A stretch of DNA of 46,735 nt. Source: Bryobacterales bacterium (lineage in GTDB: Bacteria; Acidobacteriota; Terriglobia; Bryobacterales; UBA6623). A model generated the notes under the pieces. The model saw nothing but the letters and a program-made list of their open reading frames with translations, searched no databases and was not told where the DNA came from. A program made the position numbers and the translations under genes. Each line of letters begins with the position of its first letter. Within the stretch, counting starts at the first letter, position 1. Of this stretch, positions 30,059 to 34,109 are shown piece after piece. The stretch covers positions 1 through 46,735 of the forward strand of contig JAPPLB010000160.1 in NCBI GenBank assembly GCA_028819575.1, written 5' to 3'.

Positions 30059-30469
30059 GAGAAGAAGGGTCGTGCTGGTTTTCCCATTGAACGGTCTGAG
30101 CAATGGTGTTGCCTGAGTGTCCCGAAGTATAGGTGTATATAGAGTGTAGGTGTATATAGAGTGCTCGGCGCGAACGGTCGGAATCAGAAGGCGGATTGGT
30201 TTCCCGCCGAAGAGAGGGGGTGGTTTGTGGGATGGGAGCATCGGGTATATACGCGATGCGGCGACCGTTTTCATCCCGTTCTCCAGTGATGAGGATTCCT
30301 CACTAACAGCAGAGTGCGGTACGGATAGATCGCGGGACAATGCACACACAACGAGCACCTTCTCGAAGTGGAGTACCCGCGGATGTCGGTGATCATGGTT
30401 GGGGAGAGTACCCATTTGCGGTCTTGGATGACCCGGACGGGGTTCTTCAGCCTTGGGACATTCTTCCTT
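30059..30469. other. Convergent intergenic region with tandem 17-mer
   Basis: The region lies between the 46-aa protein gene (plus) and the MFS gene (minus). It contains the perfect 17-bp tandem duplication at 30130-30163 and an otherwise unremarkable sequence with several short overlapping open frames. No terminator with a T-run is evident, and none of the frames looks protein-like. Confidence 0.5.
30130..30163. repeat. Perfect 17-bp tandem duplication
   Basis: TAGGTGTATATAGAGTG occurs twice head to tail (30130-30146 and 30147-30163) without a mismatch. It is AT-rich in otherwise GC-rich DNA. It lies in the convergent gap downstream of the 46-aa protein gene. The lack of mismatches suggests a recent duplication or a variable-number locus. 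Confidence 0.9.
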
Positions 30470-31798
30470 TCACTCCCGACTTGTGGCCTGATCCTTCCCC
30501 TCCATTTCCTCCCGGAACGGATCGAGCTTGTCGGCACGGGTCCTCATGACCAGCCAGATCGAGATTGCCGCTGTCAATAGCCCGAAAATGAAGCTGGCTG
30601 GGAATCCGAAATTGTCGGCCAGGGCGCCATGGGTGGCCGGAGCAAAGCTCGATGCCGGCGCACTGAGGTTCAGCAGCGTGAGATTGCTGGGTCCGGCGGC
30701 CACCGGCGAGATCACGGCCCCGAAATTGGGCATGTAGGCCCCTCCAAGCTCCCCCGCTCCCATGAATCCAAAGGCCAGCAGGTACGGATAGCCCGGCACC
30801 ACCCATGCCCACAGGATGCCGGCCGCCAACAGGCCGATGGTGGCCATCGCCCCGGCCCGCAGGCCGTAACGCAAGGAAAGTTGCCCCAGAAAATATCCGC
30901 CAACCGCCTTGAAACCAAAGCGAAGCGCCATCATCAGCCCGGCAAAGTCTTTCGAGTCCCTCCCCAGCGTGACTTTGGAGTAGAGCGAAAGATTCGGGAG
31001 CGTGTTCAGACTGCAGTGCCACAGCCAGTACCCAAGCCACAACAGACCAAGCGAGCGGGAGGAGGCGAAGTCCCGGATTCTCATGAGCCAATAACCGAAG
31101 AAAGGCTTGCGGGGCTTGTCTGCCACTGCAGCCAGCCGATAGCCGCGCACCAGCTTGGCGCGCATCACGATGCAGGGCGCCGCCATCAGGTAAAGGAGCG
31201 CAAAGTCATAGGGGAACGAGATGCCGGGAATGCCCGGATAGAGAATGTACTGGGCTCCCAACGAGCCGAGCACGGCTGACAAGGGACCGTAGGAGTAGGT
31301 CAGTTTCATCGCCCGCACGCGCCCATCAACGGTCGTGCCCCGCGTCAAACACTGGAACTGGAAGACCTGTGTCAGTGACCCGGAGAATCCCTGCAACAGC
31401 CCCTGCATCATCAACGCCCCAACGACGACATTACCGGGCAGGGGAAGAATAAGCGTCAGGAAAACCAGGAACAGCAAAGAGGCGGTCGCGACCGTGGCCC
31501 ATACGACCACGGAACGCTCGTGCCGGTGGGGGACCAGCCAAGCTCCCAACAGGGGAGCCACTTGCCCGACTTGGTAAAAGCTGAGCGGCAGATTGGCGAC
31601 GGTCGCACTCGTCCCGAGCTTGTCGCAAAGAGCCGCCTGCACCAAGCCGATGTAGGCGACGGGCGCCGAGAAGTACATCAGGAGTTGACCGTACAAGAAG
31701 ATCCGGCCATTGTGGCGGTTCATCTCCTCGGTGATCGGTCCCTTCGCCGAAGTCGATTCCCGTGAGGGACGGTGCGAGGCCGAGGAATGATTCTCCAT
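30470..31798 (-). CDS. MFS transporter
   Basis: A 442-residue major facilitator superfamily permease with about 12 hydrophobic segments. Recognisable features are a first helix after RIFLYGQLLMYF, a long central loop near residues 205-235 (RGYRLAAVADKPRKPFFGYW), and a loop-8/9 segment RYGLRAGAMATIG resembling the MFS A-like motif. I cannot name a substrate; the overall sequence is not typical of the sugar-proton symporters I can recall. The N-terminal 20 residues before the first helix are polar; ATG at 31798 is taken as start, with another 8 codons upstream. It is separated from the minus-strand membrane gene pair at 31950-32799 by about 150 bp. Confidence 0.85.
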   Translation of the reverse strand: MENHSSASHRPSRESTSAKGPITEEMNRHNGRIFLYGQLLMYFSAPVAYIGLVQAALCDKLGTSATVANLPLSFYQVGQVAPLLGAWLVPHRHERSVVVWATVATASLLFLVFLTLILPLPGNVVVGALMMQGLLQGFSGSLTQVFQFQCLTRGTTVDGRVRAMKLTYSYGPLSAVLGSLGAQYILYPGIPGISFPYDFALLYLMAAPCIVMRAKLVRGYRLAAVADKPRKPFFGYWLMRIRDFASSRSLGLLWLGYWLWHCSLNTLPNLSLYSKVTLGRDSKDFAGLMMALRFGFKAVGGYFLGQLSLRYGLRAGAMATIGLLAAGILWAWVVPGYPYLLAFGFMGAGELGGAYMPNFGAVISPVAAGPSNLTLLNLSAPASSFAPATHGALADNFGFPASFIFGLLTAAISIWLVMRTRADKLDPFREEMEGKDQATSRE

Positions 31799-31949
31799 GC
31801 TGCTGCTATCCCGCGAACGCAAGCACGCCCAGGCCTGCGGCGCGGCCTTTCGTTGCCTGTCTCAGAAACCCGTGCGCGGCTGAACGATTCCGTCGCACAG
31901 CGGCATCACTCCACGCCGCAACACCTGTCGGCCCGGACAGGCCTTGGTT

Positions 31950-32111
31950 TCATGCAACGCGGGCTAAGACTACGTCGCGGATCAGGCCGATTAGCGGAGA
32001 GAAGAATAGCAGAAGAGCCGCGAGCATGACGTTGCCAATTCGACAAGTGAATCGTGCGACGGTCGCCACAGATAGAAACAGAAGCTTTCCGATGAGGACG
32101 CCAGCTATCAC
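31950..32111 (-). CDS. Small two-helix membrane protein (53 aa)
   Basis: A 53-codon frame starting with GTG, beginning 22 bp after the stop of the HExxH membrane protein on the same strand. The product has two hydrophobic helices, AGVLIGKLLFLSVATVA (about 3-19) and VMLAALLLFFSPLIGLI (about 28-44), joined by a basic loop RFTCRIG, and ends RDVVLARVA. The ordered hydrophobic pattern in GC-rich DNA and the position right behind a membrane-protein gene support coding. I see no strong ribosome-binding site, so translation may depend on coupling. Family unknown. It could instead be the displaced C-terminus of the upstream protein after a frameshift, since it reads on in another frame. Confidence 0.5.
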   Translation of the reverse strand: MIAGVLIGKLLFLSVATVARFTCRIGNVMLAALLLFFSPLIGLIRDVVLARVA

Positions 32112-32133
32112 GACAGGGTATTGAGGATAACGC

Positions 32134-32799
32134 CTATGGGAGCAGCAACGGACCTAGAGCGACCTGATAGACCGCCACACCCATACCCATTCCTGCGACC
32201 ATGGACATGATGGCCGTCCAGCGCTGATCGCGTGGAAAATACCTTGCCAGCCACATCGATGACCCGATGAGGACAATGATCCCCGGCAATGTTAGGACAC
32301 CAAGCGGAACGCTGGTCAACATTGACAGGACACATTCGTCACATCCGCTTCGCACCGAAGCGCCAAACGCGTCAAGCAGGAATACTGACACCGGACCCAC
32401 GATACGCAGGTTGGAGAGATACCCGAGCGCCACCAACAACGGGTGAGCGCGCCACTTCGCGCATAGACAGCAACACGCGATCACGACGCTATAGGTAGCC
32501 ACTAAGCCCATGCCGAATCCTGCTGCGACTCCCCACAGCGGGGCCAACTCAGCGGCAGCCGAGAATTCACCGTCCATCACGAACTGAATGAACGCACCGC
32601 TCTCACTCCAGCCCGCAGAACTGTAGTGCAACTTCGCTTCCGGCAATCCAAGTGCCCAGAAGACAAGGAAATGACCCATCTCATGCGAGAGAACCGCCAC
32701 CGGGGCCGCGGCGGCGGCGCTCAAGAACCATCGAAGTGCAATACGCGCTCGTGAATCGTGTTCCTGTTCCTCGCCCGCGAACTCCATGCTTGTCGTCAC
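32134..32799 (-). CDS. Polytopic membrane protein with HExxH motif (M50-like)
   Basis: A 221-residue membrane protein with about six hydrophobic segments. The second half of the first segment carries HEMGH (His39, Glu40, His43), the zinc-binding motif of intramembrane site-2-type metalloproteases. A later stretch, NLRIVGPVSVFLLDA (residues 130-144), sits where M50 enzymes have their NxxPxxxLDG motif, with Asp143 as possible third ligand, but the match is loose. It is shorter than typical RseP or SpoIVFB proteins and has no PDZ or CBS domain. Function is probably membrane proteolysis, substrate unknown; a non-catalytic relative is possible. The GTG start given is four codons before ATG (32787). 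Confidence 0.7.
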   Translation of the reverse strand: MTTSMEFAGEEQEHDSRARIALRWFLSAAAAAPVAVLSHEMGHFLVFWALGLPEAKLHYSSAGWSESGAFIQFVMDGEFSAAAELAPLWGVAAGFGMGLVATYSVVIACCCLCAKWRAHPLLVALGYLSNLRIVGPVSVFLLDAFGASVRSGCDECVLSMLTSVPLGVLTLPGIIVLIGSSMWLARYFPRDQRWTAIMSMVAGMGMGVAVYQVALGPLLLP

Positions 32800-33311
32800 C
32801 TTGTAAGCCTGCTCGCCAAGGCCCCACAGATGTAATCCCTCGGTTCCCGTTTCGACTCTAGCAGATGGTGAAATCGCGAAGTTTCGTCGATTCGGAGTAG
32901 AACTACCGGCTTGCTTGCACCTCGACTGTGTGTCTGTCGGCGGCTGACCGGAGTGAGACGGGCCGCAACCTCGTCCCTGCTACCGGCTACGGCTCACGCT
33001 CGTCCGCAGCCGCTCTCGACGCTGTAAGCTTCGGCCTGACCTAAGCTGCTGCGTTGTACTGATGCACTCCCCGACCGTAGGTATAACTCGCACTGAAGTC
33101 AAACTGTGCGTTGCCGTGTTCGGCGATCAGTCGATGCTATCGGTGGACGGCGCCGGCCTCGATTTGACAAGGGTTTCCGTCGAAGCAGCTGTTAAAGTCC
33201 GGTTGTTCAAATAGCCCTTTGGCGTCTTGCGAAGAAGCCGCGGTCACCGTCATAAATGACCGGCAGCGGTTACTTCAATTATCCTGATTCATCAGAAATA
33301 CCGGAGCCATC
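32800..33311. other. 0.5-kb intergenic region, no strong gene
   Basis: The gap is divergent between the HExxH membrane protein (minus) and the 200-aa unknown (plus). A 50-codon frame from ATG 33062 to TAG 33214 is open but has no ribosome-binding site, and I regard it as probable chance. TTGACA at 33164 lacks a convincing -10 at the right distance. An imperfect hairpin GGTCACC...ATGACC lies around 33242-33262, shortly before the unknown gene. Confidence 0.4.
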
Positions 33312-33914
33312 ATGTTTCATCTCGACAGCTACAGCTCGAAGATCCAGTCCATCCTGCGGCCGTATGAAGCCGGCCGGCGCCTCATGCCGCTGGCGCCACA
33401 CAGCCCACTGCAGGGCGAAGGGCTCGACCTGCTCGAGAACACGAGCGTCGACGAGATGTTTGACGGAGCGCCGATCACGGCGCCCGACTTTGCCGAATGC
33501 GTACGCAGCGCTCTGTTCCTGTACTTTTCTGATCTCGACCGCTCGCACAAGATCTCCCAAAAAGTTCCCTCGACCACGGGCAGCTACTGGCACGGCATCA
33601 TGCACCGCCAGGAACCCGACTTCAGCAACTCGAAATACTGGTTCCGCAAAGTTTCCCATCACGAGGTCTTTCCGGCGGTTCGAGCAGCGGTCCTGGAGCA
33701 ATGGTCAGCCGCCGCCGGCGAAGAAGGCGCGACGCGGTTGCTGGTGGCGTCACGGAGCAGCCCTCAATGGGACCCCTTCTGGTTCATCGACCAATGCGAG
33801 GCCGTACGGCTCGGTGACGCTTCCGAGCTTGAGGCGCCCCTCAAGGCAGCCCAGCTTATCGAGTGGCAGATCCTGTTCGATTACTGCTGCCGAAAGGCTG
33901 TCGCGGCAAACTGA
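33312..33914 (+). CDS. Conserved-looking protein of unknown function (200 aa)
   Basis: A 200-residue soluble protein with no signal or membrane segment. The central motif YWHGIMHRQEPDFSNSKYW (about residues 93-111) is rich in His, Trp, Tyr and Asp in a way that suggests a conserved active or binding site. I recall similar strings in unannotated proteins of Acidobacteriota and Planctomycetes but know no function. A later segment DPFWFIDQCE and a final helix ending CCRKAVAAN complete it. ATG at 33312 is at the start of the coherent sequence; an overlapping frame (33256-34008) is longer but lacks protein-like order. It lies 195 bp before the PhyH gene on the same strand. Confidence 0.72.
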   Translation: MFHLDSYSSKIQSILRPYEAGRRLMPLAPHSPLQGEGLDLLENTSVDEMFDGAPITAPDFAECVRSALFLYFSDLDRSHKISQKVPSTTGSYWHGIMHRQEPDFSNSKYWFRKVSHHEVFPAVRAAVLEQWSAAAGEEGATRLLVASRSSPQWDPFWFIDQCEAVRLGDASELEAPLKAAQLIEWQILFDYCCRKAVAAN

Positions 33915-34109
33915 ACCGCACCCCGACCACGAGTGGGCCGATGCCGTGAATGAAGCGGAAGGCGTCGACATGATGCTGCTCCTCTTGCTTGTGACCCACC
34001 CCGTTTGAGAACTCGTTGACACTAGTAGGAACCCTCTGCTCGGGCGCTCGCTTCCTTGTAGTCCGAACATGTCGTAAGTTACAAAGGAGAGAGGGAAGAC
34101 GCGATACAC

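Follow-up and report, generated by a model that had tools for sequence, protein, structure and literature searches.

A site-2-protease-like membrane protein lacking the LDG motif, encoded on a probably gained segment of a Bryobacterales genome

Site-2 proteases of the M50 family (PF02163), among them RseP and SpoIVFB, carry HExGHF in a hydrophobic stretch with a GP motif after it, and their third motif, NxxPxxLDG, holds the third zinc ligand. A shorter kind of membrane zincin is found in DUF3267 (PF11667). Its member TmcP, a four-helix site-2 protease, requires the two-helix protein TmcE in TMcin biosynthesis, and the first histidine of TmcP, H68, lies 90 residues from D158, as described in a preprint (PMC13252029). 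M50-type membrane proteases are also encoded in epipeptide, pearlin and daptide clusters, as reported for EpeP, TglG, TmoG and the daptide site-2 protease (PMC10885120, PMC10036551).

The stretch of DNA analysed here, which we call the window, comprises 46,735 nucleotides of a contig from a Bryobacterales bacterium (genome G000). A first-pass annotation had noticed an HEMGH-bearing membrane protein in it, followed after 22 bp by a 53-aa two-helix frame, and had proposed that the two could form a regulatory pair or, alternatively, that a frameshift could have separated the small frame from the larger protein as its terminal part. The coordinates and lengths, the HEMGH, the 22-bp gap and the two hydrophobic segments of the 53-aa frame (by hydropathy) were all confirmed, and the two reading frames are offset by 1. 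The features of the locus are as follows.

32134..32799, minus strand: gene for a 221-aa HExGH membrane protein of a site-2-protease-like family without a name (26 relatives in a 27-row tree)
32671..32685, minus strand: HEMGH, residues 39-43, with H39 and H43 as presumed zinc ligands and E40 as presumed catalytic residue; HExxH in 27/27 rows
32335..32340, minus strand: acidic pair D154-E155, the presumed third zinc ligand; DE in 27/27 rows
32137..32154, minus strand: GPLLLP, the C-terminus of the protease family, where relatives end
32134-32136, minus strand: TAG stop codon of the 221-aa gene, taken as genuine
31950..32111, minus strand: 53-aa two-helix frame, judged a chance ORF, spanning the junction 32038/32039
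32039..33258, no strand: 1,220-bp segment with the 221-aa gene, in place of which the same-genus genome G002 has about 47 bp

The 221-aa frame is a real gene, beyond chance, because the 281-codon open run in the 1,220-bp unshared segment was matched in only 7 of 2000 dinucleotide shuffles and because full-length relatives exist. Its start codon is the GTG at 32799, with an in-frame ATG at 32787 as a possible alternative, and its membrane topology is a prediction from hydropathy. Of the phylum, 396 genomes were scanned at E up to 1, and 99 of them gave some match. Nine genomes beyond the window's own matched over at least 196 residues at E 2e-25 or better, comprising G589 at 39% identity and eight congeneric genomes at 32 to 34%. 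Another family (G574, G560 and G567) gave long matches of lower strength, and the remaining matches were short or interrupted. Profile searches at E 0.001 in the class of G574 returned 11 of 162 genomes, with matches covering most of the model in six, and a profile search in the class of G589 returned ten loci in 8 of 193 genomes. A scan of named genomes added two loci from Gemmatimonadota (L054 and L055); a third candidate, L056, proved to be an ordinary RseP and was dropped before all counts, and the same scan with the window protein as sole query led nowhere.

The resulting family set contains 27 rows, the window protein and 26 relatives. The nearest relatives are L145 (57% identity over 195 aa) and L146 (50% over 223 aa), both from other families of the phylum, and the grouping of these two with the window protein is supported at 95/85. 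The end branch of the window protein is long (0.51), and it has Leu99 at a position where 25 of the 27 rows have Pro. Within one eight-genome clade, dN/dS lies between 0.08 and 0.32 over 28 pairs, so this clade is under purifying selection. Three labels in the tree describe gene neighbourhoods: 'hydantoinase' is given to six rows and the neighbour gene was observed in two (G574 and G560), 'M28 pair' is given to eight rows, with the pair observed in six and confirmed by Pfam in one, and 'solo' reflects the flanking sequence available, which in the case of L055 extends 1.3 kb downstream.

Six residues are invariant across the 27 rows: H39, E40, H43, G98, D154 and E155. The HExxH motif, whose conservation in homologues was a point at issue, is thus kept in every row, and hydropathy places it in a membrane helix. 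Like M50 proteins, the family has HExGHF in a hydrophobic stretch and a GP motif after it, with a profile match over both. When a 15-member profile was compared by hhalign with 17 ordinary M50 proteins from six genomes, the alignment spanned HExGHF and the following GP motif (Prob 89, E 2.3e-6), and reversed controls reached a Prob of 0.1 to 0.5. Unlike the M50 proteins, all 17 of which contain NxxPxxLDG, the family has this motif in 0 of 27 rows and carries the invariant DE instead, and its members are too short for a PDZ domain. In 15 rows for which the spacing was measured, the DE lies 97 to 117 residues past the first His; since it stands where a third ligand could lie, it may supply one. 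The tetrapeptide around this pair, CDEC (window 32332-32343), is common to the window protein, L145 and L146 and differs in the other 24 rows.

Against PF02163, the window protein scored 13.2 bits (E 0.058; E 0.54 in the genome scan), so it falls below the gathering cut-off of 27.2, and eight of the nine members of our first alignment matched, at best with E 3.5e-5. Two ordinary M50 proteins of G000 do exceed the cut-off, so the window protein comes in addition to these and is distinct from both. The proposal of a site-2-type protease thus holds as a resemblance, carried by HExxH and the M50 profile match, and fails on the canonical LDG motif; judged by its sequences, we describe the family as site-2-protease-like and do not file it as a member of M50. 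With DUF3267 it shares the form of a short membrane zincin with HExxH and a distal Asp, and the G574 member matches that profile weakly (E 0.0076). The two families differ, however, in that a profile comparison with L110, the one strong DUF3267 match, gave a Prob of 0.23, and G000 gave no match to DUF3267 at E 0.01. AlphaFold models of the window protein from a single sequence and from three rows reached a pLDDT of 41 and 43, respectively, too low for any use in judging the fold.

The segment that carries the gene is flanked by genes for an MFS transporter and a conserved 200-aa protein, and the site is nearly empty in G002, which matches the window at 94.5% over 30470-32038 and at 92.2% over 33259-34003, with the roughly 47 bp in between. 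The GC content of the segment is 57.8%, versus 61.7% for the window, and the synonymous codon score of the 221-aa gene is lower than that of any of the window's 22 reference genes. Besides the window's own copy, no full-length one was found among 100 near relatives, both same-genus genomes (G001 and G002) included, nor among 399 genomes of the class, a set that overlaps the near relatives. The search of the near relatives gave one partial match; the class search at E 0.001 gave four matches, of which three were partial (69, 48 and 76 query residues) and were not used. Several possible sources of the segment were considered and set aside. For mobile-element ends, 31800-33400 offered no more than a single direct and a single inverted repeat, both weak; for phage or plasmid cargo, there was no plasmid match, viral match or PHROG; and when the insert was compared in six frames with five neighbour loci for remnants of cluster genes, only the protease stood out among the matches listed, the others being short, with a best E of 0.003. 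Matches to Kelch were set aside as chance. A sigma-70-like promoter was looked for and none was found. The far flank of the MFS gene varies as well, with 185 bp in the window (30285-30469) against about 1.5 kb in G002 (L013 1276-2766), so the two genomes differ on both sides of this gene. The 200-aa gene (33312-33914, plus strand) occurs in 27 of the 31 genomes searched and has no Pfam, NCBIfam or PHROG match.

A working pair, in which the two-helix protein would gate or regulate the protease as TmcE does with TmcP, was a fair guess, because that preprint provides a precedent, the closest of its kind, and the two frames are adjacent on one strand with 22 bp between them and two hydrophobic segments in the smaller. 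We regard such a pair as very improbable. Only its last 89 nt, the C-terminal half, are common to G002 and the rest is insert, so the frame crosses the junction; moreover, all three G002 differences in the shared part (Leu-to-His, Val-to-Ala and stop-to-Cys) change or end the frame. When we looked for any frame of 30-120 aa that contains a hydrophobic segment and starts between -60 and +200 bp relative to the stop of the protease gene, the window had one and none of the 26 relatives did. The codon score of the 53-aa frame falls among those of shadow frames, and ORFs of at least 53 aa arose in 1280 of 2000 shuffles of 31823-32133. The idea that the small frame encodes the genuine C-terminus of the larger protein, severed by a frameshift in the assembly or in the genome, could draw on its position 22 bp on, in another frame, and on its hydrophobicity, yet it is refuted by the single-frame relatives, because the family ends at the window protein's own stop: nothing extends past that point in 25 of the 26 relatives, and the exception (L046) has 12 further residues in a diverged tail. 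Thus, the 53-aa frame is most likely a chance ORF formed at the junction, neither partner nor lost tail. In this way, comparison with a sister genome can reveal that an attractive small protein is an artefact of a junction.

We consider it likely that the 221-aa protein is a small membrane zinc metalloprotease of a site-2-like family without LDG, gained as a single gene, and that the 53-aa frame is a junction ORF. H39 and H43 of HEMGH, together with the invariant D154 or E155, would coordinate zinc close to the membrane, and water activated by E40 would cut a peptide within or beside it; zinc binding and proteolysis are what we infer from the conserved residues. The single gene would have arrived on the segment of about 1.2 kb, with the MFS transporter gene on one side and the 200-aa gene on the other, and the 53-aa ORF would have arisen by chance where segment and flank meet. 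Counting against this explanation are the PF02163 score below the cut-off and the third motif missing from all 27 rows. The second of these, the long end branch, Leu99 and the codon score, which could indicate a decaying gene, are also what one would expect of an acquired copy that is drifting, or of a family whose zinc serves some purpose other than proteolysis. We regard decay or a non-proteolytic role as unlikely, however, since the gene is full length, has no internal stop and retains all six invariant residues, and since recent arrivals show atypical codon use too. A different history, in which an ancestral segment dropped out of G002 and the small frame could be ancestral too, whole in the window and a remnant in G002, would fit the single near-empty site, which cannot separate gain from loss; the lack of full-length copies in the overlapping sets of 398 class genomes and 99 near relatives, and the occurrence of the closest copies in other families of the phylum, leave it a rather slim prospect. 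Gain of the 221-aa gene by horizontal transfer is the simpler reading, and probably the correct one, with a probably recent arrival.

The neighbours of the relatives bear on what a protease of this family might act upon. In G589, the genes ahead of the protease encode a 383-aa protein, for which neither Pfam nor NCBIfam has a match, and a pair of NHLP-leader peptides, which score 55.2 and 45.7 bits against a cut-off of 50.9; NHLP-type export genes lie close by. The gene order is the same in L054 from Gemmatimonadota, where the leader scores 52.7 bits. Genus g433 contributes four loci in which the protease gene is preceded by a gene of LanM size and by one for a relative of the 383-aa protein. 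LanM was confirmed for L148 (668 bits), G1011 and G1012, and NHLP leaders for L148 and L150, with L147 and L149 outside that test. The 383-aa protein was found at 6 of the 12 loci tested. Its family, of about 360-380 aa and located upstream of the protease in NHLP/LanM clusters (L057 10574-11725; L054 3616-5049; L147-L150), matches nothing in Pfam or NCBIfam and shows I(Y/H)FECRL in the rows inspected. We thus identify a small family of membrane zincins with an altered third motif, part of which is tied to lanthipeptide clusters in two phyla.

In the eight-genome clade, an M28-type peptidase lies just upstream of the protease, as observed in six genomes and matched by Pfam in one. Genes of this type lie near the protease in two clades (L058 6108-7073, L147 7992-8948 and L057 5962-7020), with the M28 assignment made by Pfam for L058 and by eye for L147 and L057, and this shared neighbourhood may reflect an old linkage. 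Because relatives occur in lanthipeptide clusters or beside an M28 peptidase, our best guess, by analogy, is that the substrate is a secreted or membrane peptide. The family resembles the M50-type proteases of epipeptide, pearlin and daptide clusters in that, for some relatives, a membrane M50-type enzyme is encoded with a peptide cluster. It differs from them in that the window copy has no adjoining cluster and the LanM and NHLP genes of the relatives belong to other RiPP classes; in the flanks at hand, neither LanM/NHLP cluster genes nor the 383-aa protein nor an M28 peptidase adjoin the window copy, L145 or L146. Searches of the open-licence literature listed no paper that describes a protease of this kind in an NHLP or LanM cluster.

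A bolder proposal is that the family forms an undescribed branch of the site-2 clan, with Asp-Glu in place of LDG, that has a part in maturing or clearing NHLP-leader lanthipeptides in two phyla, and that the solo copy with CDEC acts in trans, for instance on a peptide encoded on contig C43 of G000; we regard this as a long shot. If members do process peptides in the membrane, they would offer compact systems for studying intramembrane proteolysis, free of the PDZ parts that RseP has. G000 has no LanM and no relative of the 383-aa protein, and encodes one NHLP-leader peptide above the cut-off, on C43, with a weaker match on C125. No NHLP match was found at E 0.001 in the same-genus genomes G001 and G002, and the presence of both peptide and protease in G000 and the absence of both from its two congeners is no more than suggestive of a link. 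The C43 peptide (L083 8978-9229) ends in AGLCCCW, and the NHLP-like frame on C125 is near an apparent C39-type ABC transporter (L084 1051-2352 and 6844-8973).
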